DNA of 64,000 nt from Catenovulum agarivorans DS-2 (lineage in GTDB: Bacteria > Pseudomonadota > Gammaproteobacteria > Enterobacterales > Alteromonadaceae): assembly GCF_000568405.1 (NCBI RefSeq), contig NZ_ARZY01000027.1:1-64000 (forward strand). Direction: 5' to 3'. Made by a program: the position numbers and the translations under genes. The notes beneath the pieces are model-generated. The model was not told the DNA's origin, did not search any database, and was given only the letters and a program-made list of their open reading frames with translations. This document shows positions 19,539 to 62,899 of the stretch, piece after piece (positions within the stretch are counted from its first letter, which is position 1; each line of letters opens with the position of its first letter).

Positions 19539-21452
19539 CTAGTTACCAGTTGAAACGCTACTTCCAATGGAAACTTTGTTTAGCGTAACGCTTTCACCAT
19601 TTGGCCAAACTACCTTGATGTTATCCACTTTTTCGCAACCACCTAAACCAAAGTGTAAGCGGGTATTAAGCATTTGATGAAAGCCATCACCACTTGAACC
19701 AACAACCTGAGCCCAAGTGGTGTTACAAGCTGAAACCTCAACTCGTGCACCATTGGGTTGGGCGTGGTGTTTGGGTGAAGTGGTAACATTTACCGCAACA
19801 TAATTACCCAATTGAGTTTTTGGCAGTTGATTTTGTGCTAAATACCAGCGGCCACGTTCATTGCCATAAACAAGATCTAAGCGGCCATCTTGGTCGTAGT
19901 CTATTATGCTGACACCTACGCCTGTCGCACCAATTTCTTCCGAGGTTAAACCTGCGTTTGAATGTTTCGTAAAACTTTGACCTTGGTTGTTTATCAATAC
20001 AAAGTGTTCTACTGGTTTAGCCATGTTGCCATATGGGGTAACGGCTAAATCAACAAAACCATCATTGTTAAAATCACCAGCGGCAGCACTGGTGGTTTGC
20101 TCTGGAATATCAATACCCATTTTGGCTGTTACATCGACAAATCGACCGCCTTGGTTTTCCAACAATACAGCTGGCATCAATTTACGTTTAATTTCGCTTG
20201 GGTGTGATACGACATTTTTAACAACAGCCGCTAAGCGAGATTTTACATAACCACCAATGCGCCATTTGCCGTCGCCTAAATAGCCGATATGCATGCCTTT
20301 CATATCTTTTAGATCTATATTTTGTGGCCAACCTTTTGCGTCTTCTGGCTTCACAGTTAGGTTAGTGCCTGGGTGGTGTCCGCCTTTATCACCTACTACT
20401 GTGCGTTTTTCACCGAGCTGAATGTCGTATGTGGCATAGGTTTCTTGGATGTTTTCAAGTACCAAATTTTCCCCTTCAACTTCAATTTCGTCAAACATAA
20501 AAGTATTGCGGAAGACAAAAAAGGCGAAATTGTTGTTTTCGGCATCATAGTAGGCTTCTTTTTCAAATTGGTAAGCACTGCGGTTTAAAAATAAGTCAAA
20601 GTCGCCATCATTGTCGTAGTCAATTTCTGTGATGTTGTTTACAAATTTGATTTTGGCTAATTCGCCTAAGATATCCGTGGTTGCGTCTACAAAGGTACCG
20701 TCTCCTTGACCAACAGAAAGGGTCATGTCTCGGCCACCAAAAGTTAATATGTCAGTATTACCGTCGTTATTAATGTCGGTTGAAATGGTTTTGACCGACA
20801 GTGGATCATTTGCAATGGTTAGGGTTATTGGTGCTACAAACTGGCTTTTTTCATTTTTGTATAACTGGTTGGTGGTTAAGTTTTTTGCTTTTCTTGGGGC
20901 AAAACCTGTTACAAATAAATCGAGCTGACCATCTTTGTTAGAGTCGATAAATTTAATTGATCGACCACGGCTAAAATTGAAATGGTTGAACACGCCCAAA
21001 TCTTCAATGCTTCTGTCTTTTCCAATGGAAAAATATGCGGGCTGGCGTGGGTTACCACCATCACCACCACCTTGGGCCACAACAATGTTCATATTGCCAT
21101 CGCCATCGTAATCAGCAACGCCCAAACCATGAGTGTCGCCTTTAACAAGGGTTGATGGTTGGGTAAATTTGCCTTGCTCATTCCAATAAATAAGTGCGTT
21201 TGCACCGTGTTGAGTGGTCACAACATCTTGCCAACCATCTTGGTCTAAATCGGCAATCACAGCTGAGCCCCATTTGCGATTTAGCACATCTCCAAAAGGG
21301 ATTACACCATGGGTTTTTTTGAACAGCGTGGTATTGTCTGGCTTGGATATATTGAGTGAGTCGGTATCTGATTGAGCACAACTGGCCAAACCCAATGTAA
21401 GGCTACTGCTGAGTGCCAAAAGTACAGTGTTAATTTTAAATGTTTTAACCAT
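19539..21452 (-). CDS. FG-GAP/VCBS repeat lipoprotein with C-terminal ASPIC/UnbV domain
   Basis: 637 residues. The signal peptide ends in a lipobox LASC (Cys about residue 25). Repeated Ca-binding-like segments of the form DxDxDGxxD (for example ADLDQDGWQD, ADYDGDGNMN, DSNKDGQLD, DINNDGNTD, DYDNDGDFD, DFNNDGFVD) show a seven-bladed beta-propeller of FG-GAP/VCBS repeats. The last 80 residues, with NGARVEV, GDGFHQML and WPNGESVTL, match the ASPIC/UnbV domain. Such proteins are surface or periplasmic and often occur in glycan utilization loci, but no enzymatic role is established. It is divergent from the GH82-like gene and shares its promoter region. Confidence 0.85.
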   Translation of the reverse strand: MVKTFKINTVLLALSSSLTLGLASCAQSDTDSLNISKPDNTTLFKKTHGVIPFGDVLNRKWGSAVIADLDQDGWQDVVTTQHGANALIYWNEQGKFTQPSTLVKGDTHGLGVADYDGDGNMNIVVAQGGGDGGNPRQPAYFSIGKDRSIEDLGVFNHFNFSRGRSIKFIDSNKDGQLDLFVTGFAPRKAKNLTTNQLYKNEKSQFVAPITLTIANDPLSVKTISTDINNDGNTDILTFGGRDMTLSVGQGDGTFVDATTDILGELAKIKFVNNITEIDYDNDGDFDLFLNRSAYQFEKEAYYDAENNNFAFFVFRNTFMFDEIEVEGENLVLENIQETYATYDIQLGEKRTVVGDKGGHHPGTNLTVKPEDAKGWPQNIDLKDMKGMHIGYLGDGKWRIGGYVKSRLAAVVKNVVSHPSEIKRKLMPAVLLENQGGRFVDVTAKMGIDIPEQTTSAAAGDFNNDGFVDLAVTPYGNMAKPVEHFVLINNQGQSFTKHSNAGLTSEEIGATGVGVSIIDYDQDGRLDLVYGNERGRWYLAQNQLPKTQLGNYVAVNVTTSPKHHAQPNGARVEVSACNTTWAQVVGSSGDGFHQMLNTRLHFGLGGCEKVDNIKVVWPNGESVTLNKVSIGSSVSTGN

Positions 21453-24694: not shown

Positions 24695-26587
24695 TTAGTT
24701 CCATCGGCTATTTGGGCAAGTTGACATGCCATAATAGTTACAAACACGGCTTGAGGATGTCGTGCTATCAATTGTTTGATGGTGCGGGCTAGGAAAGCCT
24801 GAAGTATTTAAGTTGTGAATAATTACCTCAAAGTTGTATTCTTCACCCTGAACATTTTTATCTATTACTCCGCCTAGAGATGGGCCTAAATATATTTGCC
24901 CTTGTTTAGGCCATTGCGCATTTGTAGGTAAACACACGCGGTTACAGGCTGGGTTCATTAACTCAAAATAATCTAGTTGATCTTGTTTTAAGTGTGCATT
25001 GGTTCCGTAGTTAGCGGTAACGTTGTAAATATCCGATTTTTCAAACGAACCCGGTTTTAAGCCATGAATGCGGTATACCTCATTTAAACAACGTGGGATG
25101 TCGGTAATACGTGAAGCCCAGCGGGTACCGCCGTTTCCGCGCGCATATGGTGTTTGTGCACAGCCATTGCCAATTTCAGCTTCTACAGCCGCTTTCCAAC
25201 TGTTACGAGTATGGCTTTCATTTGCTGGGCTAAATAACTCAACAAAACCTTTGTCGACACGTACTGCAAAACCACAACCATTAGACTCGACGCCATTTAC
25301 TTCTACGGCGCCATTTTCCATAAAGTGTGGACCAAACATTACTGCAGCTAAACCATCGGTGCAGCTTATGTTTTGCGCATAGATGTCTCGAATACCACCT
25401 TGTTTGAGGTTTTTCATGACCAGGTTGTCTGTTTCCATGCGAAGTGTGATACCACCTTCACCATCTAGATCTCTAAACAGAATATTATCAGCGCCATAGG
25501 TTTGTACTACTCCATAACCAAAGAGCGCATTTCTTTGAGTTACTTTTTCAATTATGCCGTTATGAGGCCAATACAGATTATTACCTCGTCTAGTTACGCC
25601 AACTAAAAATGATGCAAATATGGTTTTGTTGTCTTCAATTTTAAAGTTAGATATTTTGAAGTTATCGATATCGCCTAGGTTGAATACCGCTAAATTAGGA
25701 TCGTTAGACTGGCGAAAATCTACGGTGAAACCGTTATTGCGCCCAACAACACTGAAGTTTTCAACTTTAGGCTCCCCAAAGGTACCGACTTCAAATATTC
25801 TGTGGTTGCGGCCATCGTTGTTTGGCGTTGGATAAATTGTTGCACCATTGGCGATCTCGATATGGACATTAGAGCGCACATGAACATTTAAAAAGTAATA
25901 ATCGCCAGCGGGAATAAATAATTTCCCCCCTTTCGGTTTAGCGCTGATCTCATCAATAGCTTGTTGTAGTTTGGCGCTATCGTCATTGTTATCTGAGTTA
26001 TTAACACCAAAGTGATTGACTAGATTATATGAAACGCTGTATTGGGTTGGTGCTGTGTAGAAGTCACTGTCAGATATATTTGCAGGGCCAGAATTGCCGC
26101 CCGAACCAGCAGGTTGACCTGTTATTTTCAACTCATTTAAACCAACTTCTTGCCCACTAGCAGCCTGAAATAATACACGCATTCTGCTGGTTGTATAATT
26201 GTTGGGGATCGGAAATGCTGGATCAAAATCAGTTGAATTGTGTGCCCGCCAGTTGCCTATATCTTGCCACTGGCCATTTTCCCAACCTTGAACTTTCCAG
26301 CGAGAAACCGAATACGGGTAACTGTTATCTTCCAAAAAAGACACATCGAAATCACTGTGTTGACTGCCAAAATCAAACTCCAACCATACGTTTGAGTTTG
26401 TGCCACGGGCATTGGCGCTGGCTTCGTTGTTTAAATTATCATCAAAAGCTTTAGCGTAATTAACCTTCCAGCTGTCGCTTTTTGCCGAAAAGGTTGTTGG
26501 GTTTGCAAGACCCGCTGCATTAACTTGTGTGCTCAATGCAAATGCACAGACTAGGGTACCTACTACCAAGGGTTGTCGGTTCTTCAT
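24695..26587 (-). CDS. cgiA: GH82 iota-carrageenase with N-terminal F5/8C (CBM32-like) domain
   Basis: 630 residues from the ATG at 26587. A signal peptide ends at about residue 24 (VNA-AG). Residues 28-158 form a discoidin-like carbohydrate-binding domain (NNEASANARGTNSNVWLEFDFG ... VGLNELKITGQ), a Gly/Ser/Asn linker follows to 170, and residues 185-560 form the parallel beta-helix. Gln362, Glu385, Asp387, His421 and Glu450 have exactly the spacing (0, 23, 25, 59, 88) of the residues I recall as Gln222, Glu245, Asp247, His281 and Glu310 in the Alteromonas fortis enzyme. It should cleave beta-1,4 bonds in iota-carrageenan with inversion, outside the cell or in the periplasm. Six Cys in the C-terminal 200 residues suggest disulfides. 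The gene is monocistronic: terminators stand on both sides. The iota specificity is inferred from the family. Confidence 0.88.
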   Translation of the reverse strand: MKNRQPLVVGTLVCAFALSTQVNAAGLANPTTFSAKSDSWKVNYAKAFDDNLNNEASANARGTNSNVWLEFDFGSQHSDFDVSFLEDNSYPYSVSRWKVQGWENGQWQDIGNWRAHNSTDFDPAFPIPNNYTTSRMRVLFQAASGQEVGLNELKITGQPAGSGGNSGPANISDSDFYTAPTQYSVSYNLVNHFGVNNSDNNDDSAKLQQAIDEISAKPKGGKLFIPAGDYYFLNVHVRSNVHIEIANGATIYPTPNNDGRNHRIFEVGTFGEPKVENFSVVGRNNGFTVDFRQSNDPNLAVFNLGDIDNFKISNFKIEDNKTIFASFLVGVTRRGNNLYWPHNGIIEKVTQRNALFGYGVVQTYGADNILFRDLDGEGGITLRMETDNLVMKNLKQGGIRDIYAQNISCTDGLAAVMFGPHFMENGAVEVNGVESNGCGFAVRVDKGFVELFSPANESHTRNSWKAAVEAEIGNGCAQTPYARGNGGTRWASRITDIPRCLNEVYRIHGLKPGSFEKSDIYNVTANYGTNAHLKQDQLDYFELMNPACNRVCLPTNAQWPKQGQIYLGPSLGGVIDKNVQGEEYNFEVIIHNLNTSGFPSPHHQTIDSTTSSSRVCNYYGMSTCPNSRWN

Positions 26588-26742
26588 ATAAATCCTCAAA
26601 TTGTGTTGTGTAAAGTGCTTTGTGGTGACTGGCAGAATATTCCATTACAGCCAGTTAACAAAAATGCTACATCAGTTTATTTACTAGGTCAATAAAGATG
26701 TTATGTATTTAAATGTAGTATGTAATGGTTGGGTGGAATGGG

Positions 26743-26790
26743 AAAAAAACCAACCAGTATGTGTAGTTGTAGCTACACATAAAGGTTGGT
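26743..26790 (-). terminator. intrinsic terminator after the molybdenum hydroxylase operon
   Basis: Two nested stems: outer ACCAACC/GGTTGGT and inner ATGTGTAG/CTACACAT. On the minus strand a run of seven T residues follows the outer stem. It ends the 30485-26808 operon. Confidence 0.85.
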
Positions 26791-26807
26791 GAACACATAG
26801 GGAATTG

Positions 26808-29003
26808 TTACACAGTGTAGAATTGGTTTAGTGGAAGGCTTCTATGCCGTTTGCCAGTGGCGGCATATACTGCATTGACTATACTCGGTGGTACAGGTGG
26901 GACCCCAGGTTCGCCGACACCGCCCGGTTTGTCAGTGCTTTTAACCACATCAACTTGTATTTCTGGCGACTGATTGATTCTGAGTACTTGAAAGTCATGG
27001 AAATTCGATTGCTCCACCGCTCCATTTTTAAAACTAATTTCATTTAACAAGGCGATTGATAAACCGAAAATTATCGCACTTTCCATTTGTGCTTTAACTC
27101 TATCTATATTAACTATAGTGCCAGCATCAATGCTCAAATAAACCTTTTTAACTGTAAGTTTGTTACCTGTCACTTTTACATGACTAACCACAGCTATATC
27201 ACTAGCAAAGCTATGGTGTGCCGCTAAACCTAGTGCTTCATCTTCGGGTAGTGAATCGCGTTGCTGCCAATTTGCCATTTCACACACACGATTGGTTACG
27301 TTTTTAAGCTTGCTGTTTTCTGGTTGGTTCCCAAGCAAGTGGTTCCAGTGAGCAAGTGGGTTTTGTTTTAGCGCGTGTGCAACTTCATCCATAAAACAGC
27401 CAATCGAGAACGCATTTTGAATGTTTGCCACAGAGCGCAACCAGCCTATACGAGTATGAGCTGGTGAGCTGACTGCGTGCGTTTGCATTTTATCAATGTT
27501 GAAGTTATGGCGAATAATATCGCGTAATTCAAAATTCTTGTTTGGGATGTCTTTGTTGATGTTCCATAAAGATTGAATTGGCGTGAATGCGACATGGGTA
27601 TCCCAACGATATAAGCCTGCTGTTCGGCTGATTTGTGCTTTGTGGTGTATAACACTGTTTGTATGGTAGTAATCGTGCTGAATATCATCTTCACGTGACC
27701 AAACTACTTTTACAGGTTGGCCCATACGTTTTGCGATAAGTGCTGCTTCGACAACGAAATCGGGTTGTGCTTTACGTCCAAACGCACCACCTAATAGAGT
27801 AACATTAACTTTAACTTGCTCGGGTTTTAAGCCTACTCTTTGAGCAACATTACGTTGCACTGCTTGCGGGGATTGAACACACGACCAAATCTCACAGCTG
27901 CCATCTTTATGAAACATGGCTGTCGCGGCTGGCGGTTCCATTGGTGCATGCGCTAGATAGGGCAGCGTATAGGTTGCCGTTAATTCGGTTAAATCTTTAG
28001 GTTTGGGTCCTTGTTTATTGGCTTGTGCTTGGCGTTTACTTTTGCCATTTTCTGCCATTTGTTGTTTGGTCTGAACGTCGGCTTGACTATCGTATTGGCT
28101 ATATTCGCTGTCACGCCATTGAATGTTTAGAGCATCCAGTGCTTTTTTTGCTGCCCAAGTATTTGTTGCAACAACAGCAACGCTTGATACAGCATTAAAT
28201 GTAACCGGAAAGCTATGTTCACCCATAGTGAAAGCATCAACAACGCCTGCTTGTTTTTTTGTATTGTCTAAGTCAACTTTAGCTATGGTGCTGCCCATCA
28301 CAGGGGCACGCTTTAAACAAGCATATAGCATATTCGGAATTTGCACATCTTGCCCATATTCTGCTGTGCCATTAATCATGCTGTCTAAATCGAGCGACTT
28401 TAAACCTTTACCAATGTAGTTAAATTGTTCTGGTTTTTTTAAGGTTAACTGGTTTGCGTCTGGCACTGTGATTGCGCTGGCAAGTTCGGCTAAATCACCA
28501 TAACTAAGTTTGCGACCGTTGTTGTTATTTGTAACATAATGATTTTTTGCTTCGCATTGGCTTATATCAACCTGCCAAAAATTCGCGGCAGCTTGTTTTA
28601 ACATATATTGTGCTGACGCGCCGAACTGGCGTAATTCGGTTAAGAAGCGTCTGATCGATTGAGAGCCATCGGTATTTTGATCGCCATAGGCTTTGTCACC
28701 AATTGCTTGGATTACATTTACATATTGCCAGTCTGCTTCTAATTCATCCGCAATAACTTGAGCGACACTGGTGCGTATGCCTTGACCCATTTCGGAACGA
28801 TGACAAGTCAGTGTGACAGTATTGTCTTTGGCAATATTCACAAACAAGTTGAGTGCGCTGCCGCTTTGGGCCTGAGCTTGTTCTGCGACAGTTAATGCTG
28901 ATAGAGGAATGGTGCATTGCAAACTGAATACTGCAGTACTCGCACTTGCACCCCTAATAAATTGGCGACGGCTAACATTTTGTATGTTTAAGGCGTTATC
29001 CAT
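26808..29003 (-). CDS. molybdopterin-binding subunit of a Tat-exported xanthine dehydrogenase-family enzyme (IorB-like)
   Basis: 731 residues from the ATG at 29003, one base after the FeS subunit stop. The N-terminus carries a twin-arginine signal (SRRQFIRG, residues 11-18) followed by a hydrophobic stretch, so the enzyme is expected in the periplasm. Family motifs include CHRSEMGQGIRTS, GGAFGRKAQPDF for cofactor binding, and the active-site GVGEPGVP near the C-terminus with the catalytic Glu of molybdenum hydroxylases. There is no FAD subunit, so it is of the two-subunit isoquinoline-oxidoreductase type that passes electrons to a cytochrome. The substrate is unknown: aldehydes or N-heterocycles are typical. 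Its location between carrageenan genes suggests an aldehyde sugar, which is inference. Confidence 0.88.
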   Translation of the reverse strand: MDNALNIQNVSRRQFIRGASASTAVFSLQCTIPLSALTVAEQAQAQSGSALNLFVNIAKDNTVTLTCHRSEMGQGIRTSVAQVIADELEADWQYVNVIQAIGDKAYGDQNTDGSQSIRRFLTELRQFGASAQYMLKQAAANFWQVDISQCEAKNHYVTNNNNGRKLSYGDLAELASAITVPDANQLTLKKPEQFNYIGKGLKSLDLDSMINGTAEYGQDVQIPNMLYACLKRAPVMGSTIAKVDLDNTKKQAGVVDAFTMGEHSFPVTFNAVSSVAVVATNTWAAKKALDALNIQWRDSEYSQYDSQADVQTKQQMAENGKSKRQAQANKQGPKPKDLTELTATYTLPYLAHAPMEPPAATAMFHKDGSCEIWSCVQSPQAVQRNVAQRVGLKPEQVKVNVTLLGGAFGRKAQPDFVVEAALIAKRMGQPVKVVWSREDDIQHDYYHTNSVIHHKAQISRTAGLYRWDTHVAFTPIQSLWNINKDIPNKNFELRDIIRHNFNIDKMQTHAVSSPAHTRIGWLRSVANIQNAFSIGCFMDEVAHALKQNPLAHWNHLLGNQPENSKLKNVTNRVCEMANWQQRDSLPEDEALGLAAHHSFASDIAVVSHVKVTGNKLTVKKVYLSIDAGTIVNIDRVKAQMESAIIFGLSIALLNEISFKNGAVEQSNFHDFQVLRINQSPEIQVDVVKSTDKPGGVGEPGVPPVPPSIVNAVYAATGKRHRSLPLNQFYTV

Positions 29004-29004
29004 G

Positions 29005-29496
29005 TTATTTGCTCTCCATTTCTTTACAATTAACCCCAGCGACAGAACAAATGGCTTTTTCAATTCGTGCATAGGTACCGCAACGGCAAATATTACCCGA
29101 CATACCATTTTTGATTGCCTGTTTGTCTAGTCGCGAGTTGTTGGAAACCAAAGCGATTGCTGACATAATTTGCCCTGGTTGACAGTAGCCGCACTGAGGA
29201 ACATTGTTGTCTTGCCAAGCTTGTTTTATTGCTATGGCATTTTTTTTGTATTCAGCGATGCGATCTACTTCTTCTATGGTTGCGAGTTTGCCATCGCCTA
29301 CTGCCGAAATAGGTAAACTACAGGAGCGCAATGCTTGACCATTTAGCAATACTGTACAAGCACCACACAGGCCTTTACCGCAACCGAACTTGGTGCCTGT
29401 AAAGTTAAGCAGATCACGAAGTACCCATAAAACAGGCATATCAGGTTCGGCTTCAACCTGGTGTACTCTGTTATTTATCGACAATGTATATTTCAT
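29005..29496 (-). CDS. [2Fe-2S] subunit of the molybdenum hydroxylase (IorA/CoxS-like)
   Basis: 163 residues. The plant-type [2Fe-2S] cluster motif (FGCGKGLCGACTV, residues about 38-50) and the second cluster motif (CGYCQPGQ ... NICRCGTY, about 98-142) are complete. It lacks its own signal peptide and would be carried out of the cytoplasm bound to the Tat-bearing large subunit. It overlaps the XdhC-like gene by four bases and is followed after one base by the large subunit, so the three genes are one tightly coupled unit. Confidence 0.93.
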   Translation of the reverse strand: MKYTLSINNRVHQVEAEPDMPVLWVLRDLLNFTGTKFGCGKGLCGACTVLLNGQALRSCSLPISAVGDGKLATIEEVDRIAEYKKNAIAIKQAWQDNNVPQCGYCQPGQIMSAIALVSNNSRLDKQAIKNGMSGNICRCGTYARIEKAICSVAGVNCKEMESK

Positions 29497-30485
29497 ATTG
29501 TTAGCGCCTTTTCCTTAATGTAACTGGGTAATAATGGTTGTTTGAGGTGTAATTCTTGTTTATTGGCAAGCACGGCCTTTACTTCAGCTAGCGTGCTCAA
29601 AGCTATTTCTTCCGGCAATTCTCCACCTATATCAAGGCCAAGGGGGCCATAAAGTGGCTTAGTGAGTTGTTGACCCAACTCTGGTAGTTTATCTATTACT
29701 TTTTCTTGCCTGTGTTTGGGGCCTAACATGCCAATATATTTGGCGTTGCTACTTTGTACATAGCTTAGTGCTTGGGCGTCAAACTCTAGGTTGTGACCCA
29801 TGACAATGGCGGCATCAAAATGTATGTGTGGCAGTTGTGAAAATAGCTGTTTGTAATAGCTAAATGGTTGTGGGAATTGTTTGATGCCCACATGCGTGGA
29901 ACGATAGTCAAATAAGGATACCTGCCAACCTAAAACTTGTGCCATTTTAACCATAGGAATGGCGTCTAAGCCCGCGCCAAATATGGCTAGATGCACTTGT
30001 GCTTGATAGTAAAAAGGCTTTTGTGTTGTTGCTTGGTTTATATGGCTAAAAGCTTGGTTGCAAACTAAATTTTGTTGAGTGTTAATGTGATAATAGGCTT
30101 GTTTGTTCGTGGTTAGTGTGTTGTACAACTCAGGCAAATATTGAAAATGATTGGTCTCATTTAAAGGTTGAATTAACACGGTAATACTGCCGCCACATCC
30201 TAAAAAGTGGATAGGCGATGCACCGTCGTCTTTAGTGTCATAAACAAGGGTTTTATGCTTTTGTAAAAATATTGCTTTTTGTGCTTGTAAAATGATATCC
30301 GCTTCTAAACAACCGCCACTTAACATGCCCATGCTGCGGCCTTGGTTGTTTATTAGCATAATTGCGCCGGGTTTACGGTACGACGAACCTGAAATTTCAA
30401 TAACGCTGGCTAGTGCCCACTGGTATTGATCTTTTACATCTAGCCAATTTTGCAATATAGATTGAACATGATTGTGTGAATTCAT
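29493..30485 (-). CDS. XdhC/CoxI family molybdenum-cofactor chaperone
   Basis: 330 residues. The N-terminal XdhC/CoxI domain has MLSGGCLEADI at about 54-64 and the HFLGCGGSITVLIQPL block at about 93-108. The C-terminal half is a Rossmann-like domain with LAIFGAGLDAIPMV and AAIVMGHNLEFDAQAL, ending in the GLDIGGELPEEIALSTLAEV signature. XdhC proteins bind, sulfurate and insert the molybdenum cofactor into hydroxylases before export. It is the first gene of the operon, about 25 bases after the terminator hairpin of the lipoprotein gene, so it either has its own short promoter or depends on read-through. Confidence 0.92.
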   Translation of the reverse strand: MNSHNHVQSILQNWLDVKDQYQWALASVIEISGSSYRKPGAIMLINNQGRSMGMLSGGCLEADIILQAQKAIFLQKHKTLVYDTKDDGASPIHFLGCGGSITVLIQPLNETNHFQYLPELYNTLTTNKQAYYHINTQQNLVCNQAFSHINQATTQKPFYYQAQVHLAIFGAGLDAIPMVKMAQVLGWQVSLFDYRSTHVGIKQFPQPFSYYKQLFSQLPHIHFDAAIVMGHNLEFDAQALSYVQSSNAKYIGMLGPKHRQEKVIDKLPELGQQLTKPLYGPLGLDIGGELPEEIALSTLAEVKAVLANKQELHLKQPLLPSYIKEKALTI

Positions 30486-30510
30486 CTCAATTTTATTAAA
30501 CCTTGGTTAT

Positions 30511-30538
30511 AAAAAAGGGCAGCACACAGGCTGCCCTT
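30511..30538 (-). terminator. intrinsic terminator after the second Big2 lipoprotein gene
   Basis: Nine-base stem (AAGGGCAGC / GCTGCCCTT) with a six-base loop and, on the minus strand, a following T-run. It separates the lipoprotein gene from the XdhC gene, perhaps with partial read-through. Confidence 0.88.
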
Positions 30539-30553
30539 CAGCTTGTTTAGCGA

Positions 30554-32419
30554 TTAGTTAACTTCAACAACTGATAGGTCATCAATTATCATTTCATCGC
30601 CATTGGCAAATGCACCTTCAAATTCAAAACCGAATTTGATGACTTGCGGTAACGCATCCCATTCTGCTGGAATGGTGAACTCACCAAATTCAACTTGTTG
30701 CCAATCAGTTGTATTGGCTAAAGGTTGGGTTAATTGCATGTTAAATGGTGCATGACGACGTGCCCAGCTGTTGTATTCATCTGCTGAATGATAAGTAGTA
30801 TCGTCAGCGGTTTTCCAAGTAAACATAAAGTTGGTCATGCTTCTTTGTTCACCTTCAGCTACTTTATTCGGTAATTTAACCCAAACTGAAAATTTGAATG
30901 TTTTACCAATAAACGCAGGGCGACCAAAATTGCTAGCTGTCCAGCTTGCAGTACTTGAATTCCAGCGTTGTAGTAGTGTTCCAAAGCCATCCTTTTTGAT
31001 TGGATCGTTAAAATCAGCATCTTTAACTATTACTTTTATTGCATTAGAGCCAGCAATACCTTCACCAATAGCTGTTGAAACACTAGCTGCTGTACCTAAA
31101 GGTACCCAACGAGTAGAGTTATTAGCAGTACTTACTTTTACATGCGTATCGCTGTTTAACATAGTGTCGTGCTCAAACGCGTAATCGAAATCGTAAGTCG
31201 TACCATCTGCAGGGTTGGTGGTATGACAAGCAACATTATCAACAACTGTTAATTCGACAGCTTGGTCAGCAATTGCTGATGCAGGTACACCATGTGTTTC
31301 ACCCGTAGAGTACGAGGCTGTTACATTGGTTTTTGTACCAATTGCACCTGGGGTGAACATAGCGGTTTGGCCGAACCCGTAGTTTAGCGCTGATTCAAAT
31401 GTGAAATCGGTGGTATTTGAAGACTCAAAATCAAACGTATATTCACCGGTTAACTCTTTTCCTGGAATTTCTAATTGAGGTTCAACCACTACAGCTGATT
31501 TGCTACATGCAGGCACAGACTTTTTACCTGTGTATGCACCGAGGTCATCTTTTTCGCCATTAGTAATTGCTAAAGTGAAACCAGCTGTAACCGTTACTTC
31601 TGCGGTAGCAGTATGGCCACCATCAACACTAGTTGCAGTAATTGTGGTTGTACCACGTTTAACGCCTGTGACCACACCTGTGTTGGCATCTACAGTTGCT
31701 ATTGACGTATCTGCAATAGAGTAGGTGATACCACTTTCACATGCGTAAGTAGGTGCAGTTGCGGCTGATGCCTGCGAGCTACCGCCAACTGGTACGCTTA
31801 CATCAGCAATGCTTACGCTGGTTACAGGGTCAGTTGCTGCGTTCATTGTGAGCTGTAGAGTTCTGCGTGGTATTTGAGTTATATCAGAATAGGTATAACC
31901 ATTGTTTACTTCATAACTAATTGTGTAAGTTACACTTTTAGGAAAATCAGGGAAGCCGTCGGCAATAGGGTTGCCATCAGAATCTTTACCACCGCCACGC
32001 TTATCTGTGTTGTCGCAAAATCGTAAGCTTTCAGCAAACTTATCCGTATCAACTTCTAAGCTGCGACCATCTTGTGAAATTACAAAAGGGGAAATGGTTA
32101 AATTATTTAACGAATTACTTTCAGACTGTGGGGTTAAAAAGTTTTTATCCACTGCCATTTCAATTTGGCGGATTGCCAAGTTACCAGTGAACTCAGCTGC
32201 TGGTTTGTCGCCAACCATAGCGCCAGCTAACAGGTCAATTGTTTTTAAGCCTGAGTTTTCAGTATAACTTTCGGTTAAGATTTGCTCAGAGTCGAATGTT
32301 ACTGGCTCGTCACTAATAAAGTTTGCGTTATAGCCTTCTTCTACGTCTGATTTACATGCGCTTAGCGCAGAAACTACTGCAATAGCTGTAGCCGTTTTAA
32401 ATAGTAAGTTGTGTTTCAT
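30554..32419 (-). CDS. Big2-domain surface lipoprotein, putative glycan-binding partner, copy 2
   Basis: 621 residues. Lipoprotein signal peptide ending in LSAC (Cys22). One clear Big2 domain lies at about 195-285 (VTSVSIADVSVPVGG ... GVVTGVKRGTTTITATS). The C-terminal 180 residues look like a carbohydrate-binding jelly-roll (SFWVKLP-like KFSVWVKLPNKV ... EMIIDDLSVVEVN). The gene follows the TonB receptor at 32506 by 86 bases. The same layout (lipobox, first 80 residues with a TLLAG-like motif, Big2, terminal beta-sandwich) as in the 9507-12137 protein suggests homologous partners of two parallel import systems. Glycan binding is inferred. Confidence 0.8.
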   Translation of the reverse strand: MKHNLLFKTATAIAVVSALSACKSDVEEGYNANFISDEPVTFDSEQILTESYTENSGLKTIDLLAGAMVGDKPAAEFTGNLAIRQIEMAVDKNFLTPQSESNSLNNLTISPFVISQDGRSLEVDTDKFAESLRFCDNTDKRGGGKDSDGNPIADGFPDFPKSVTYTISYEVNNGYTYSDITQIPRRTLQLTMNAATDPVTSVSIADVSVPVGGSSQASAATAPTYACESGITYSIADTSIATVDANTGVVTGVKRGTTTITATSVDGGHTATAEVTVTAGFTLAITNGEKDDLGAYTGKKSVPACSKSAVVVEPQLEIPGKELTGEYTFDFESSNTTDFTFESALNYGFGQTAMFTPGAIGTKTNVTASYSTGETHGVPASAIADQAVELTVVDNVACHTTNPADGTTYDFDYAFEHDTMLNSDTHVKVSTANNSTRWVPLGTAASVSTAIGEGIAGSNAIKVIVKDADFNDPIKKDGFGTLLQRWNSSTASWTASNFGRPAFIGKTFKFSVWVKLPNKVAEGEQRSMTNFMFTWKTADDTTYHSADEYNSWARRHAPFNMQLTQPLANTTDWQQVEFGEFTIPAEWDALPQVIKFGFEFEGAFANGDEMIIDDLSVVEVN

Positions 32420-32505: not shown

Positions 32506-35500
32506 CTAGAAATTTAAACGAAGACCAACACGGAACTGCTGACCTGTTTTAAAGGCCGCAAAGGTTCTGGTTTTTACACCGCCGTTAAAGTAGTTACCTT
32601 CGTCTAGTCGGATATCAACACTATCTGTGTTAGTCGCATCAGTCGCATTTCCTATGGTGTAGAATGTGCGACGATCGTCATCTAACAAGTTAAGTGCGTT
32701 AAATGTCACAGTGAAATTTTTATTAATTTGGTAGTTGGCACTAAAGTCTAAACGGCTGGTTTCTTCTTGCCACACCGCACCACCTAAAATACCACCATTA
32801 ACTAGCTGTACGCCCGTATATCTGTGGGCTAAACGTAAACTTGCGCCGTCTTGTTCCCAAAATATAGTGGTATTAGCAGAATGTTCAGGTGTTAACTCTA
32901 CAGGCATGCTTTCAATAAATACGCCTGTTGTACCAATTTCTAAATCATCTTGTTCAGAGCTTTGGTAGGTATAGTTAATGCTTGCGCCTAAGCCAGATAG
33001 TATGCCTGGTAAGAAGTCATAAGTTTGTGTATAACCAAGCTCTAAACCAGTAATTTTCGAACCACCTGCGTTTCTAACCTGATCAATAACTGCAACATCA
33101 CAAGTAATTTCCCATTGGTCGATCCAGCCTGCTGGAAACCTATGTGAATGACAGTTATCTGCATCACCAGGTGTGCGATTTTCATCAAATGGCATCAAGA
33201 TATTAAAGTCAGTCATGTTGTAGTCTGTCTTTTTATCTTTGTAATGATATGGTGTTTGTACTCTTACTTCTTGTCCTTGCATGTCTTTATTAAACAATGC
33301 AACAGAAACCATACCTTCTTCATTGAAGTACCACTCAAATGAAAGGTCTAAGTTGGTTGATTTTAAGAAATCAAGTTTAGTATTACCTGCTTGACCGTCG
33401 GTTGTGCCCCACTGATTTTCTCTAATTTGGGTACGTGGATTTCTAGAGTCAATATTTGGACGCGTCATGGTTTTACTGGTGGCAAAACGCACAATCATTT
33501 CATCATTAACAGCAAAGTTTAAATTTAAGCTAGGTAATAAAGCTTCAGTAGTTGATGAATCGGTGGCAATACCAACACGATAGTAGGTTTTTTCATCATG
33601 TTCACTAATAGGTCCATTTGGACCATCTGAAAATCTACTAGTCTCACGAGAAATAAATGGCCAGATTGGTGCTTGTGCTGGTGCACCAAAACGTACCCAA
33701 TTACCAGCATTTGAAGACTTAGTCACGCCTGCTTGGTCTGTGTAAATAGTCAATTCTGAATTGACAGGAATTGAGTTTTGAATGGTACCATCACTATTCA
33801 TCCACAATACGCGGTTAACGTCTTGCTGCGCTGTACCATCAGGGCCAGCCAGCAAAAATTCGCCTGTCGCTGTATCATACGGGTAGGTAGAAGCGTCTGT
33901 TCGGTTGTAAGCATGGGTTACTTGCCAAGCCCAACAGTTTCTAAGTTCACTGTCATTTGGGACAACACCACGCCAATCACTTTTTCCACCAAATTCGCCA
34001 ACTTGAGCTTCAGGGCAGGCAGGCTGTGACATATCCCCTAAGTTACGCACGACTAACAAATCATATGGGTCAACTAGTTGAGGGACGTTGATATATCTTA
34101 ATTCACCAAAGCCAATTGCTGCATTTTCGTCTCTAACTTTACGTACACCAATATTACCTGTTAGGCGGCCATCAAACCCTTCAAAATTGAGTTTAAGGTA
34201 AGCTGCAGCTGTTTCTGTTTCAATAAATCGGCTATTACCAAAATTGACACGTTCCTCTAAATCGTCACCATTAGTGATAATACCTAGCGCTTTTTGCGTA
34301 TCCAACATTGGCCAGCCGTTAAATAAAGCATTTGAACGATCAGCTTGAATGTCTTGTGCGAAGTTATCGTATGGGAAAGATTCTTGCGATAAGATATCGC
34401 CCACATTGATATTGCCTAAACCTCTCGGCGGTTCGCTAGTTTCTTCCCCCTCAGCTGGAATATCACCAGCATTGGTGATGGAAACGTTACTAACCAATAC
34501 TTGGCGCTCACGTTTAGCGTATTTCACACCAAACTCAATTTTAGTTAGATAATCGGTATCTAATAGATAATCTAAATCCAAGAACAATGATTTGTTTTTG
34601 TCTTCTAGAGCATTGTTACGGAAAGTAAAACCACCTACATGGTTATGCTGTAAGTCAAATGGATTAAAACGGCTGCGAACGTCTATTGGTGTGCCATCAA
34701 AGGCATCAAATACACCTAGTGTTGTGCCTGTCACTATATTACAGTCGGTAATGCTACCTTGAGTACAATCATAACCAACATTTTCAAAATTAGGCATTGC
34801 AAGAACAGCATCTCTGCCTGCTGTGCCCCAAGTATTGGTGCTCATTGATATATATTGGCCTGGTGTGTTTGGCAAAGGCGTTTCATCAACGGTTTTAGAG
34901 TAACCCGCCAATAATTTAACGTTTAAATTATCGGTAATATGGTAATCAACAGATAATGATGCAACATTGGTTTCTAAATCGCGTTCACCTGATGTACGGT
35001 TAAAACCACCGGTAAAACTACGACCATACATTTTTTCTATTGTATGGGTTGATAAGTCAATTACATTAATATCGTCAGATGTTTGTAATTGATTAGCTGG
35101 CGCCATATTAAGAGTTAAAGCATGCTCATCATCTATGGTTTTTTGTTGTGTATGGGTTAAATCTAGTTGAATGTCTAAACTATCAGTTGGACGTAATTGA
35201 ATGCCAGACGAAATAGAGGTTCTTTTACGCTCGTCTCGGTTTAAGCCAATACGATAAAACTCTTTCGCGGTTGCCCAAGCTTCATCTTCAGATATAGCTA
35301 CTTGGGTTGCTTCGTCATAGTTTGTTAGGCTTGAAACATCGTTTAATGTACGCACACCTTCATCGTCTGTTGTATAACCTAATACACGAATTTGTTTGCC
35401 GTTTAAATCAGTTGCTTTACGGCCGCTGTCTGCCTCCCAATCGGCAATCGGTAAAACACCATTAACATAATCTGATTGAATTCGGTCTTGGCGGGTTTTT

Positions 35501-36201
35501 TGATTATCATGCGATACAGTAACGATTACACCCAAAACATCATTAAAGAACTTTTTAGAAAAACTGCCGTTTACCCGAATATCGTTTTCGTCTGCGTATT
35601 TATTGTAACGACCTTCAATGGTAGCGGTTAATCTGTCATCTTGTAGTGCAAGTGGTTTAACTGTGCGTAAGCTAACGCTACCACCCAATGAACCTTCGTC
35701 TTGGTCAGCTGCGGCTGTTTTTACAACATCAATTGACGATAATATATCTGATGAGAAAGAACTTAAATCCACACTATTGTCTTGAATGCCATCGCTACCT
35801 GGATCAGATAAGCCACCTGTTAATGCCACACCATTCATGCTGATTTGGTTCATAGAAGGGCCTGCCCCACGAATTGAGATACGTGCGCCTTCGCCATTTT
35901 CTTCAGTTACGGTGACACCCGTCACGCGTGACAATGCATCTGCAATATTTTGGTCGGTTGATTTACCCACATCTTCTGCGTGAATCGAGTCTGAAACACT
36001 TTGAGAAAAACGCTTAGCGTTCATGGCTTTTCTTAAGCTACCACGAAAGCCTTTGATTTCAATGGTTTCAATATCTTCAGCTGTTTTGTTTTGATCAACT
36101 GAATCAACTTCAGTGTCTTCTTCAGCTGCGTAAGCAGTGGTTGCAAAACACGTTGCTAATACTGCTGCAGTTACTGCTTTGAGTTTAAAGTTGTATTTCA
36201 T
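32506..36201 (-). CDS. TonB-dependent receptor (large, carbohydrate-type), copy 2
   Basis: 1231 residues from the ATG at 36201, preceded by GGAGAGG; an upstream frame adds 20 residues without signal-peptide character. The signal peptide ends near residue 26 (AYA-AE). A TonB-box-like segment ETIEIKGFRGSL lies near 45-56 and the plug domain has ADALSRVTGVTVTEE and ARISIRG. The barrel ends with terminal Phe (FRVGLRLNF). It is closely related to the 12160-15834 receptor in the plug. It lies 96 bases after the sulfatase stop and is followed by the Big2 lipoprotein, so sulfatase, receptor and binding protein probably form one operon for uptake of sulfated or desulfated galactan oligosaccharides. 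Confidence 0.93.
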   Translation of the reverse strand: MKYNFKLKAVTAAVLATCFATTAYAAEEDTEVDSVDQNKTAEDIETIEIKGFRGSLRKAMNAKRFSQSVSDSIHAEDVGKSTDQNIADALSRVTGVTVTEENGEGARISIRGAGPSMNQISMNGVALTGGLSDPGSDGIQDNSVDLSSFSSDILSSIDVVKTAAADQDEGSLGGSVSLRTVKPLALQDDRLTATIEGRYNKYADENDIRVNGSFSKKFFNDVLGVIVTVSHDNQKTRQDRIQSDYVNGVLPIADWEADSGRKATDLNGKQIRVLGYTTDDEGVRTLNDVSSLTNYDEATQVAISEDEAWATAKEFYRIGLNRDERKRTSISSGIQLRPTDSLDIQLDLTHTQQKTIDDEHALTLNMAPANQLQTSDDINVIDLSTHTIEKMYGRSFTGGFNRTSGERDLETNVASLSVDYHITDNLNVKLLAGYSKTVDETPLPNTPGQYISMSTNTWGTAGRDAVLAMPNFENVGYDCTQGSITDCNIVTGTTLGVFDAFDGTPIDVRSRFNPFDLQHNHVGGFTFRNNALEDKNKSLFLDLDYLLDTDYLTKIEFGVKYAKRERQVLVSNVSITNAGDIPAEGEETSEPPRGLGNINVGDILSQESFPYDNFAQDIQADRSNALFNGWPMLDTQKALGIITNGDDLEERVNFGNSRFIETETAAAYLKLNFEGFDGRLTGNIGVRKVRDENAAIGFGELRYINVPQLVDPYDLLVVRNLGDMSQPACPEAQVGEFGGKSDWRGVVPNDSELRNCWAWQVTHAYNRTDASTYPYDTATGEFLLAGPDGTAQQDVNRVLWMNSDGTIQNSIPVNSELTIYTDQAGVTKSSNAGNWVRFGAPAQAPIWPFISRETSRFSDGPNGPISEHDEKTYYRVGIATDSSTTEALLPSLNLNFAVNDEMIVRFATSKTMTRPNIDSRNPRTQIRENQWGTTDGQAGNTKLDFLKSTNLDLSFEWYFNEEGMVSVALFNKDMQGQEVRVQTPYHYKDKKTDYNMTDFNILMPFDENRTPGDADNCHSHRFPAGWIDQWEITCDVAVIDQVRNAGGSKITGLELGYTQTYDFLPGILSGLGASINYTYQSSEQDDLEIGTTGVFIESMPVELTPEHSANTTIFWEQDGASLRLAHRYTGVQLVNGGILGGAVWQEETSRLDFSANYQINKNFTVTFNALNLLDDDRRTFYTIGNATDATNTDSVDIRLDEGNYFNGGVKTRTFAAFKTGQQFRVGLRLNF

Positions 36202-36297
36202 GTGGCCTCTCCACTTATTTTTAAGTTTAGTGCTTCCTCCTAGTAGTCGTTGTTCCTTCAATAACTACTAAGAATAGTTGTATTTTCGGTGATTGCG

Positions 36298-37746
36298 TTA
36301 CTTCACTATCACATCACCCGATTTAGCTGATTTAGCATCGAGCTTTTCCCATCTATATTTGTCCATTCGGTCAATGTCGTAATTTTCGAATTTACGTTTC
36401 AACAACCAACGCGGACGTTCTAAAGTTGATTCCCATTCAAATAAGGTTTTGAACATTTGACGGACACGCTCTGGCTGTTCTGCTGCCATATCGCGAATTT
36501 CTTTTACATCGTTAGGTACGTAATAAAGTTCAGCAGGACGGTCTGGGTAGCGAATCAGTTTCCAGTCGCCTTGGCGGATGGTGGCGCGTACATCTTTTTT
36601 CCAATATAGAATGTCGTGTGGACGAGCTTGGTTTTCACCGGTTACATGAGGGATTAGGTTTTTACCGTCTATGCCTTTTAAGTCTGCAACGTTACCGCCG
36701 CCTGCTGCATAGAAGGTTGGTAATAAATCAAAGGTCATTACAGGGTAGTTATATTTGCTACCAGCCTTGAATTTTCCAGGCCATTTGATTAGATAAGGTA
36801 CGCGTAAACCACCTTCTAAATGGTTAGATTTAGTACCACTGAAAGGTGCGTTGTCAGATGCATTTTTGTCAGTTGGGCCACCATTGTCATTGGTAAATAC
36901 CACTATGGTGTTATCGTCTATACCCAGCTCTTCAAGTTTGTCTAAAATTTTGCCTGTTGCTCTGTCCATTGCTAAAGTCATTGCTGCAACAATTTTGCGA
37001 TTGCCCGTTAATTCTGGAAACTGGGCTAAATCTTCTTCAGTTGCTTCCATTGGGGTGTGAACAGCGTTATATGAAACAAAAGCGAAAAATGGTTTTTGTT
37101 CTTTATGCTTACGTTCGATAAAGTCGATAGCTTCATCAGCCAATACGTCAGTTAAATAACCTTCATGTTCTTCATAAAAGCCAAAGCCGCGTTCCATGTA
37201 ATCTAATTTGCTTGGTGGCTTATTGGTGGCTGTGTATGGCCAGAAGCTACGAGCGCCGCCACGGAAGCCATAAAATTCGTCGAAACCACGTTTTGTTGGG
37301 TGGAATTTATCTGCACCACCTACATGCCACTTGCCATAAAATGCGGTGGCGTAACCAAGTCGTTTTAAATAGTCGCCCATAGTTACTTCGTTGGTAGGGA
37401 TACCCATTTCGTCACCATCTACACCAGTGTTTTTACTCATGTAACCAGGCACGTTATTTTCTTCGTAACCAAATCTTTGTTGATACTTACCTGTGATTAA
37501 GCCTGCACGTGAAGGGCCGCAGGTTGGATCGGTTACATAACCTTGGGTAAAAAGCACACCTTGTTGGGCGATTTTGTCTAGGTTAGGCGTTTTCATTATT
37601 TTGCTGCCGTGAAATCCAAAGTCGGCATATCCGGCATCATCTGAAAATAACAGAACTATATTAGGCTGTTGTGATTTTGTCGCAGCGACAGCAGTTATGC
37701 TGATTAGGCATGTTGCTAATAACATAAACTGGCGAACTAGATTCAT
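36298..37746 (-). CDS. family S1 sulfatase (formylglycine type), copy 1
   Basis: 482 residues with a signal peptide ending near residue 22. The type I maturation motif [11 protein letters not shown] starts at Cys76; that Cys would be oxidised to formylglycine by a maturase not present in this window. The metal-binding DD is at residues 36-37 ([11 protein letters not shown]), and later motifs GKWHVGG and [10 protein letters not shown] complete the active site. It hydrolyses sulfate esters of a polysaccharide in the periplasm or outside. It starts a minus-strand group ahead of the TonB receptor. A perfect palindrome ATAAACAT-CAT-ATGTTTAT lies 65 bases upstream. The position attacked on the galactan cannot be read from sequence. 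Confidence 0.92.
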
Positions 37747-38796: not shown

Positions 38797-38838
38797 GCCG
38801 TATAAATATTTTTGGCCAGTTGGCTGTATGAGGTAACA

Positions 38839-45662: not shown

Positions 45663-46817
45663 ATGAAAATATCTGATGTTAAATGTTACTGCTTTTGGGC
45701 CGGCTTTCGAAATGTTTGTTTAGTTAAAATTGAAACTGAGTCGGGCATCTATGGTTGGGGAGAGTCTGGTTTATCTGGGCGTGAATTAGCGGTTGCTGGA
45801 GTTGTTGAGCATTTTAAACACTTCCTAGTGGGTAAAGATTCGCGACAGATTGGCGCGCTCTGGCAAGAAATGTATCGTAGCCAATACTTTGAAGGAGGTA
45901 GAGTGTTAGCTGCTGCGATAGCTGCGATTGATATTGCTTTGCATGATGCTGTTGCTAAATCTTTTGATGTACCAGTTCATCAATTACTTGGCGGCAAACA
46001 GCGAGATGAAATCCCTTTATTTGCAACCAGCATCAAGCCGATGGGCAATGAGCTTATCGAAGCGTTACTGAATTTAAAAGCACAAGGTTGGCAAGCGTTA
46101 CGGGTGACAACTGGCGAGCATGGGTGTGCAAGCAATAGTAGCTTGTTTGATACTAGAAAATCGATTGCAAGTGTTGCTGAATGTTTGGTAGAAGCCCGCA
46201 GCGCTTTGGGAAATGAAGTGGTATTAGGGATAGATTATCACCATAGATTAACCGTGCCTGAAGTTGCTTCGTTTATGCAAAAAATGCCAACAGGTACAAT
46301 AGATTTCTTAGAGGAGCCCATTCGAGATGAGTCTACTGTTGCGTATCAATCGTTACGTTCATTGGTTGATGTTCCATTTGCAATTGGGGAAGAATTTACC
46401 AGCAAATGGGATTTTGCACCATTTGTTGAAAGTGGCTTAACTCAGTATGGCCGAGTCGACATTTGTAATGCGGGTGGATTAACCGAAGCAAAAAAAATTG
46501 CTGCGATGTGTGAGTTGCACTACATCGATATGATGCCACATAACCCACTTAGCCCAATTTGTAGTGCGGCATCTATCCACTATTGTGCGTCTATTAATAA
46601 CCTAGCTTGGTTAGAGCTACCTCCATATGACGGTGATATGTCCGATTATGACAATTATTTTATCAACCGACCGCAACTGTCAGGTACTGTTTTTAAAGTA
46701 GACGATACACCAGGGTTAGGCATTGATGTGCGTGAGTCCTTGATAGCAGATTTGCCTTTTAAATTTTGGGAACCACCCAGGTTGCACAAAACAGATGGCT
46801 CATACACTAATTGGTAA
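45663..46817 (+). CDS. mandelate racemase/muconate lactonizing (enolase superfamily) enzyme, galactonate dehydratase-like
   Basis: 384 residues. The N-terminal capping domain (1-115) precedes the barrel. Metal ligands are Asp191 (GIDYHHR), Glu217 (DFLEEPI) and Glu243 (AIGEEF). His193 and His293 (MPHNPLSP) occupy the places of the two catalytic His in D-galactonate dehydratase, and LRVTTGEHG replaces the usual KxK strand. The enzyme should act on a sugar acid in the cytoplasm. In carrageenan or agar catabolism the ring of 3,6-anhydrogalactonate is opened by enolase-superfamily cycloisomerases, so that role is a reasonable inference; plain galactonate dehydration is the alternative. It is first in an operon with the MFS transporter (13 bases downstream) and the GntR regulator. 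Confidence 0.82.
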   Translation: MKISDVKCYCFWAGFRNVCLVKIETESGIYGWGESGLSGRELAVAGVVEHFKHFLVGKDSRQIGALWQEMYRSQYFEGGRVLAAAIAAIDIALHDAVAKSFDVPVHQLLGGKQRDEIPLFATSIKPMGNELIEALLNLKAQGWQALRVTTGEHGCASNSSLFDTRKSIASVAECLVEARSALGNEVVLGIDYHHRLTVPEVASFMQKMPTGTIDFLEEPIRDESTVAYQSLRSLVDVPFAIGEEFTSKWDFAPFVESGLTQYGRVDICNAGGLTEAKKIAAMCELHYIDMMPHNPLSPICSAASIHYCASINNLAWLELPPYDGDMSDYDNYFINRPQLSGTVFKVDDTPGLGIDVRESLIADLPFKFWEPPRLHKTDGSYTNW

Positions 46818-46830
46818 CAGGAGAAAGAAA

Positions 46831-62873: not shown

Positions 62874-62899
62874 TTGCACTTCTGTCTTAACGTTTGAGT

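Follow-up and report, generated by a model that had tools for sequence, protein, structure and literature searches.

A probable periplasmic molybdenum hydroxylase operon in a carrageenan locus of Catenovulum agarivorans, a candidate accessory to anhydrogalactose oxidation

The carrageenan locus of Catenovulum agarivorans DS-2 contains a three-gene operon that encodes an XdhC-type maturation factor, an iron-sulfur subunit (FeS) and a molybdenum-binding large subunit (Mo). It lies at 26808..30485, on the minus strand, of the 64,000-nucleotide stretch analysed here (contig NZ_ARZY01000027.1, positions 1 to 64,000; hereafter the window). We propose that this operon is an accessory of carrageenan catabolism, which would supply an aldehyde oxidase exported through the twin-arginine (Tat) system, with 3,6-anhydro-D-galactose (AnG) as its most likely substrate. 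Judged from sequence, we give this reading a probability of roughly 0.37. That the operon has a role in carrageenan catabolism of one kind or another is likely. Below, C9 to C37 denote contigs of the DS-2 genome (the own genome; the window is C27), while G- and L-numbers denote genomes and loci of the comparison set. G000 is the own genome, and G050 and G085 belong to the same genus.

The operon starts with the XdhC-type gene (29493..30485; PF13478/PF02625; NF045664 at 121 bits, below its cut-off of 350), followed by the small subunit with two [2Fe-2S] motifs (29005..29496; PF01799/PF00111) and the large Mo subunit (26808..29003; PF02738/PF20256). It is embedded in a minus-strand run that reads S1 sulfatase, TonB-dependent receptor, lipoprotein, XdhC, FeS, Mo and GH82, with gaps of 36, 86, 68, -4, 1 and 208 bp. 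Open reading frames (ORFs), Pfam domains and structure matches all bear out the position between the receptor/lipoprotein pair and the GH82 gene, to which the first-pass annotation had drawn attention. Three of the neighbours have counterparts on the carrageenan plasmid of Pseudoalteromonas carrageenovora. The sulfatase that opens the run (36298..37746; PF00884) is 61% identical to the plasmid sulfatase at 28893-30314, the receptor (32506..36261) is 52% identical to the plasmid's TonB receptor, and the lipoprotein with a Big_2 domain (30554..32419; PF02368) is 37% identical to a plasmid protein. The GH82 iota-carrageenase (24695..26599), which carries an F5/8-type domain and matches 3lmw/1h80 at E 7e-193, begins 208 bp past the Mo gene.

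The short gaps had suggested co-transcription of the Mo operon with the import genes, an idea we withdrew on finding a hairpin with a T run before XdhC. This terminator-like hairpin lies in the lipoprotein/XdhC gap (approximately 30512..30539, minus strand) and consists of a 10-pair stem followed by a T run (-17.3 kcal/mol, z -2.15). A second one, read directly from the letters, occupies the Mo/GH82 gap (approximately 26740..26795, minus strand), where the arms ACCAACC...GGTTGGT enclose ATGTGTAG/CTACACAT and are again followed by a T run. Because terminator-like hairpins flank the operon on its own strand, XdhC-FeS-Mo probably forms a transcription unit of its own, despite the short gaps. A different hairpin with a T run is found at the matching lipoprotein/XdhC position in G050, and the gap between receptor and lipoprotein in the window holds a hairpin without a T run. 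A consensus terminator scan called no minus-strand terminator in the gaps, assigning the first hairpin to the plus strand alone.

The mechanically called Mo ORF (766 amino acids) begins at 29108, within the FeS gene. The ATG at 29003, which corresponds to residue 36 and lies 1 bp past the FeS stop codon, is the likelier start. From this ATG, the N-terminus (MDNALNIQNVSRRQFIRG...) carries the motif SRRQFI, in agreement with the twin-arginine signal noted earlier, as far as a motif judgement goes. A permissive RRx[FLIVM] Tat motif is present in 10/10 large subunits checked. The FeS subunit contains both 2Fe-2S Cys motifs and has no Tat motif of its own. The Glu at the catalytic position of GGVGEPG is conserved in 105/105 aligned rows. 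An FAD partner of the xanthine-dehydrogenase type is absent, as previously stated, among the 30 of the window's 38 ORFs (at least 150 amino acids) that were scanned against Pfam. The GGAFGR loop was considered as a lineage-specific mark and rejected, as Ala occurs there in 30/105 rows.

In the Protein Data Bank, the best match of the Mo subunit is 8gy3_C (E 3e-72, residues 44-761 of the 766-residue ORF), with the runner-up at 1e-19. The Mo-binding pieces are permuted, such that positions 25-172 of MoCoBD_2 fall at residues 52-212, ahead of MoCoBD_1 at 374-585. A permuted order of the Mo-binding domains is also found in IorB, and 8gy3 is a Gluconobacter enzyme with a cytochrome subunit. The near full-length match to 8gy3_C, the permuted order, the separate two-[2Fe-2S] subunit and the Tat motif liken the operon to IorAB and 8gy3, and its product is probably a two-subunit, periplasmic Mo hydroxylase of the isoquinoline 1-oxidoreductase/8gy3 aldehyde dehydrogenase type. 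Unlike these systems, the operon contains no cytochrome c gene, begins with XdhC and is set in a carrageenan locus. PaoABC of E. coli, which belongs to the xanthine oxidase family, is likewise an exported aldehyde oxidase with Mo, and its middle subunit binds FAD. Here, the FAD subunit is missing, and the PaoC model scores 101 bits against a cut-off of 1180. None of the XdhC, FeS and Mo proteins reaches an NCBIfam cut-off, and the substrate can therefore not be read from a name. In a Colwellia locus (L179:1-9836), an octaheme c-type cytochrome and an aldose 1-epimerase stand ahead of the Mo operon; the octaheme cytochrome, which is also near Mo in G038, is a candidate electron acceptor.

Homologues of the Mo subunit (E<=1e-50) occur in 165/295 genomes of the family Alteromonadaceae. 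The two closest relatives are found in G085 and G050. In G050 (57% identity), the order sulfatase-TonB receptor-lipoprotein-XdhC-MocA-FeS-Mo repeats that of the window with a MocA-like gene added. In G085 (58%), XdhC-MocA-FeS-Mo is divergent from a TonB receptor and lies among sulfatases. The MocA-like gene that these relatives have between XdhC and FeS is missing from the window operon; the own genome encodes a MocA homologue on C12 (34%) and a MoaA-type protein on C16. About 20 kb from Mo, G050 also has a DauD-like aldolase and what by eye appears to be the start of a GH127 gene.

Among the 80 nearest loci, GH82 or GH167 genes are found in L105 (Microbulbifer elongatus), L129 (Algibacter) and L172 (Colwellia sp. 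C2M11). In L154 (Psychrosphaera sp. B3R10), two carrageenan-type sulfatases lie immediately upstream of the Mo operon, and G038 has a related Mo operon in a carrageenan-type locus. The M. elongatus locus comprises a complete DauABCD set, GH167, GH82 and sulfatases. In the Algibacter locus, DauA/B occur with GH127s and GH167s, and an XdhC-MocA pair stands apart behind a sulfatase; the Colwellia and Psychrosphaera loci contain DauA/B, a TonB receptor and a lipoprotein. XdhC is directly preceded by an S1 sulfatase at a distance of 136 bp in Psychrosphaera and 22 bp in Algibacter. Since L172/G291/G297 are apparently one genome, L154/G134/G298 another, and L100 equals L045, these counts refer to loci, not species. 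The next-nearest loci (L040-L046) place XdhC-MocA-FeS-Mo outside recognised polysaccharide utilisation loci (PULs) in 6/7 cases, with CoxE-like neighbours in two; in L042, MocA-FeS-Mo adjoins sugar-acid genes. Here (L042:4977-12193 / L195, G088), the MocA-FeS-Mo operon (47%) is found beside a DgoK-type kinase, an SMP-30 lactonase, a short-chain dehydrogenase (SDR) and a GntR regulator, a link to oxidative sugar catabolism.

In a tree of 105 rows, built by a quick method with SH-aLRT support, the eight rows labelled as carrageenan-linked need four changes, all four of which are forced by starred branches, and span two phyla. The four placements are the genus of the window, Microbulbifer, Colwellia/Psychrosphaera/G038, and Algibacter. 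The second Mo copy of the own genome (C37) clusters with an unlabelled clade. This pattern argues for repeated recruitment into carrageenan loci, although a mixture of gains and losses could also account for it. The eight labels were set by hand. G085, G050 and G038, which received no label within 12 kb in the one stretch tested, were added from a wider reading, and the Psychrosphaera row has only sulfatases within 12 kb. L034_825 and L187_9934 (one distant clade with sulfatase neighbours) and L042 (DgoK-like kinase) were left unlabelled; the GH82 match in L187 spans 12% of the protein. Weaker sulfatase matches in L098, L125, L133 and L153 do not enter the count; L182, a copy of L154, was removed, and L162 yielded no Mo ORF.

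Further arrangements were observed around other Mo genes. A second Mo/FeS pair (33-35%) lies near an S1 sulfatase in L034:825-3679 (G085) and L187:9422-12111 (G084), that is, in two genera and one starred clade, and is possibly a fifth recruitment. In L184:1388-5457 (G009), FeS and Mo share a run with a DauB-like gene of the enolase superfamily that lies upstream of them (36% identity to DauB). No obvious PUL is nearby, and the arrangement pairs a Mo hydroxylase with an acid-sugar dehydratase or cycloisomerase. The other Mo operon of the own genome (C37, L091:5110-13652) has a 1435-residue gene between XdhC and the Mo subunit.

The first-pass annotation had placed the Mo operon in a route that dispenses with a cytoplasmic dehydrogenase. 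This part is not supported, as the own genome contains homologues of DauA, DauB, DauC and DauD in carrageenan surroundings. The genome search suggested there for a cytoplasmic anhydrogalactose dehydrogenase returned a DauA homologue on C22, a 475-residue aldehyde dehydrogenase (ALDH) 42% identical to P. carrageenovora DauA, adjoined by a 383-residue enolase-superfamily protein 38% identical to its DauB. The two ORFs overlap by one base, and overlapping dauA/dauB genes are reported for C. echini. The best structure match of the DauB homologue is 5olc (Zobellia DauB; 326 bits, versus 119 for the L-type 5xd7), and that of the DauA homologue is 6pnu, an ALDH from a carrageenan PUL, which was deposited with the Pseudoalteromonas carrageenan paper in which a DauA structure is reported. 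The surroundings of DauAB on C22 comprise sulfatases, a GH82, a GH127-like protein that by eye seems to carry a signal peptide and, further on, two GH167 matches. C14 encodes DauC- and DauD-like proteins as well as a sugar porter, GntR regulators and a GH127 that shows no obvious signal. A further pair of ALDH and enolase-superfamily genes, on C9, resembles the set for agar (L-AnG).

The own genome thus has homologues of all four genes of the DauABCD pathway of Zobellia galactanivorans and Pseudoalteromonas. DauA is reported to be an NAD(P)-dependent ALDH; the Mo enzyme has no relation to it, appears to be exported and comes in addition to it. We also considered the Mo operon as a replacement of DauA in other genomes and rejected this, as DauA lies on the same contig as Mo, 10.1, 14.1, 21.0 and 22.4 kb away, in 4/4 carrageenan-linked genomes tested. 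The Mo operon therefore accompanies DauABCD. In a fifth genome of this search, M. agarilyticus, in which Mo lies outside a recognised carrageenan locus, the only matches were at or below 37%. DauA and Mo are on different contigs in the own genome and G085, and 67 kb apart in G050.

An acid-sugar transporter and an enolase-superfamily enzyme had been reported from the same locus, and both are present: a galactonate-dehydratase-type enolase-superfamily enzyme (45663..46817, plus strand; structure and model matches), a major facilitator superfamily (MFS) transporter of the D-galactonate type (46795..48114, plus strand; TIGR00893 at 369 bits, cut-off 395) and, with them, a GntR/FCD regulator (48135..48803, plus strand; PF07729/PF00392). 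The suggestion that the enolase-superfamily enzyme opens the anhydro ring is not supported, given its closer relationship to D-galactonate/mannonate dehydratases, and we rejected it as a DauB (3vcn 201 bits and 3rr1 196, versus 149 for DauB 5olc). It is 50% identical to the plasmid gene at 30335-31498 of P. carrageenovora and 25% identical to the plasmid's DauB; by position, we infer that the former is the published D-galactonate dehydratase. NF010624 (galactonate dehydratase) reaches 251 bits, below its cut-off of 311, and is still the best-fitting family. A paralogous dehydratase-MFS-GntR set (69%/69%/53%) is found on C21 beside a PfkB kinase and a 2-keto-3-deoxy-6-phosphogluconate (KDPG) aldolase; the 19.9 kb read there contain no Mo gene. 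The window set is most likely a general aldonate unit, because of the galactonate-type matches and the C21 paralogue beside the PfkB kinase and KDPG aldolase. What stands of the pathway originally drawn up is therefore a probably periplasmic Mo hydroxylase tied to carrageenan loci by conserved order and recurrence; its role as a stand-in for the cytoplasmic route and the ring-opening enzyme are not supported.

How, then, might the operon contribute? XdhC would aid cofactor insertion in the cytoplasm, and the FeS subunit would be exported together with the Mo subunit via Tat. In the periplasm, the enzyme would turn an aldehyde into the acid and pass the electrons to a c-type cytochrome encoded elsewhere. 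The likeliest substrate would be free AnG, which GH127-type enzymes with signal peptides would release in the periplasm. Once imported, the acid would enter the canonical pathway at DauB, and the cell would be rid of a reactive aldehyde. AnG suits this role well because it is largely an aldehyde or hydrate when free, because a GH127-like enzyme looks exported, and because of its periplasmic release and the stress that free D-AnG causes. According to PMC5698469, AnG is released in the periplasm of Zobellia, where free D-AnG also brings about aggregation and the induction of stress proteins. Other aldehydes would fit this evidence as well. A specific form of this proposal is a respiratory, NAD-independent bypass of DauA, in which an exported Mo hydroxylase, recruited at least four times in two phyla, would oxidise AnG, pass 3,6-anhydro-D-galactonate on to DauB and remove the stress-inducing aldehyde; we put this forward tentatively and regard it as rather doubtful.

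Several points weigh against the operon as an AnG-oxidising accessory. Known relatives of the enzyme act on aromatic or small aldehydes. With T-run hairpins before XdhC and after Mo, a transcript shared with the import genes or GH82 is unsupported. The operon includes no cytochrome partner, and no CxxCH motif was found in the listed window ORFs (at least 110 amino acids). No residue distinguishes the independent carrageenan-linked lineages when 10 distant rows are excluded; the sole filtered column common to all four groups is N at position 233 of the trimmed row, a letter that 26/87 other rows share. The annotation of the P. carrageenovora plasmid lists no Mo operon in its first 45 kb. Every carrageenan-linked, Mo-positive genome tested has DauA, which would make a second AnG oxidase redundant. 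According to PMC5698469, deletion of dauA in Z. galactanivorans abolishes growth on D-AnG, meaning that a bypass is not general, and Table 1 of that paper (induced genes) contains no Mo hydroxylase. Nor is the module core, as a Mo operon lies near carrageenan genes or S1 sulfatases in at least seven of the 22 GH167-positive genomes, the own included (G000, G050, G085, G038, G134, G291 and G084, in which GH82/GH167 genes or S1 sulfatases with 40% identity or more lie close to Mo). Of these 22 genomes, 14 had one or more Mo neighbourhoods read, some Mo genes aside, and G224 has no Mo match. The neighbourhoods in G034, G117, G121, G180, G183, G196 and G209 fall outside the count, none with Mo within 30 kb of GH167/GH82. 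Finally, the proximity of Mo to GH167/GH82 is not significant within genomes positive for GH167/GH82 (46 Mo genes, 22 genomes without the own): two lie within 15 kb (expected 0.57, p 0.11) and three within 30 kb (expected 1.03, p 0.086). For the 80 nearest loci, three with GH82/GH167 within ~12 kb compare with a rough expectation of 0.06 (p about 3e-5), an estimate that presumes 40 merged anchor loci, a single genome size and Alteromonadaceae prevalence throughout. The proximity test thus speaks against a strong claim, whereas the 80-locus estimate favours it, and with gene order and the tree taken into account the evidence leans toward an association.

These figures bear on the possibility that the operon is a passenger, a common Alteromonadaceae aldehyde-oxidase operon that sits in carrageenan loci by chance and has no specific role there. 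The commonness of Mo homologues in the family, the non-significant proximity test and the operon's own terminator-bounded unit would fit. We nevertheless consider it improbable, given the excess among the 80 nearest loci, a gene order kept at only 57% protein identity and recurrence across phyla. A separate transcription unit would equally permit separate regulation, as expected if the enzyme detoxifies red-algal aldehydes or heterocycles, such as bromophenol aldehydes, and is found in carrageenan loci since the signals coincide. The top models and structures, which are aldehyde dehydrogenases/oxidases and aromatic hydroxylases, are consistent with such a function, and related operons located outside PULs, with CoxE-like neighbours in two of seven cases, point to a general role in aldehyde metabolism. 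A carrageenan-derived substrate, however, agrees better with the four or more separate placements in carrageenan loci and with the adjacency to carrageenan-type sulfatases. No aromatic-degradation enzymes were recognised in the window, where the best model for the IclR regulator at 63047 is of the PcaR type (47 bits, cut-off 285). On balance, detoxification appears unlikely.

A carrageenan-derived substrate need not be AnG. The Mo enzyme could oxidise D-galactose or another carrageenan aldose in a periplasmic branch of the De Ley-Doudoroff pathway, the aldonate being imported by the MFS transporter and converted by the dehydratase to 2-keto-3-deoxygalactonate (KDGal). The galactonate-type dehydratase and MFS genes required are found in the window and also beside FeS-Mo in Algibacter (54%, 64%), and the Colwellia locus encodes an SMP-30 lactonase with a lipoprotein-like start. 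Galactose, on the other hand, has almost no free aldehyde. De Ley-Doudoroff enzymes have been reported from carrageenan PULs. Yet no such dehydratase or MFS gene was detected in the stretches read around Mo of Microbulbifer, Colwellia and Psychrosphaera, and the C21 paralogues, with no Mo gene in the stretch read, indicate that the set works without a Mo enzyme. This branch is quite unlikely in our view, and AnG stays our preferred substrate.

Beyond the operon, the window encodes two GH167 enzymes of the beta-carrageenase family (38812..41241, plus strand, 9whd/6ptm; 41288..43732, minus strand, 6ptm/9whd) and a second S1 sulfatase (43760..45553, minus strand; PF00884). A CRTAC1-like FG-GAP/UnbV protein (19539..21452, minus strand; PF13517/PF07593) has homologues in other carrageenan loci. 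This family is perhaps a candidate anhydro-galactosidase; the missing anhydro-galactosidases have been proposed to be beta-propeller lipoproteins of the Pseudoalteromonas CarPUL. A PF12831 FAD oxidoreductase (61029-62879) is repeated in Mo-containing carrageenan loci of Microbulbifer (58%, L105:15968-17893), Algibacter (60%, L211:12755-14683) and G050 (40%, L037:5406-7691). The Microbulbifer and Algibacter copies have Tat-like KRRxFF motifs at the N-terminus, and the family possibly corresponds to the 'FR/SR' of a heat map published in 2017. A 1641-residue ORF (53827-58752) has a C-terminal part that by eye resembles an RHS/YD-repeat protein; similar ORFs lie beside DauA in G050 (L094, L095).

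That heat map, in PMC5698469 (2017), shows carrageenan genes in 29 further genomes, and its legend (Fig. 9) lists an "isoquinoline 1-oxidoreductase alpha subunit" (OXR), the same kind of gene as in our operon. OXR occurs once in the main text, in this legend; function, large subunit, export and origin are not discussed there. The association was thus recorded in 2017 as a label alone. Among the literature matches listed, carrageenan and isoquinoline 1-oxidoreductase are joined only in this paper, and we found no later take-up. The string 'molybd' does not occur in the main texts of PMC5698469, PMC6952198, PMC6262041, PMC6923384, PMC5943477, PMC5613140, PMC13168452 and PMC10958521. In Flavobacterium IR1, a moeA deletion alters PUL proteins and colony colour on kappa-carrageenan, and the passages that describe this name no carrageenan-linked Mo hydroxylase.

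In the current model of carrageenan catabolism, NAD(P)-dependent oxidation in the cytoplasm comes after hydrolysis and desulfation. A Mo oxidase that recurs in the periplasm, if confirmed, would add a direct respiratory oxidation to this scheme and make part of carrageenan turnover dependent on molybdenum. It would also give a function to a type of gene that was merely labelled in the 2017 comparison. With the known phenotype of the Zobellia dauA mutant, a double-mutant experiment becomes possible.

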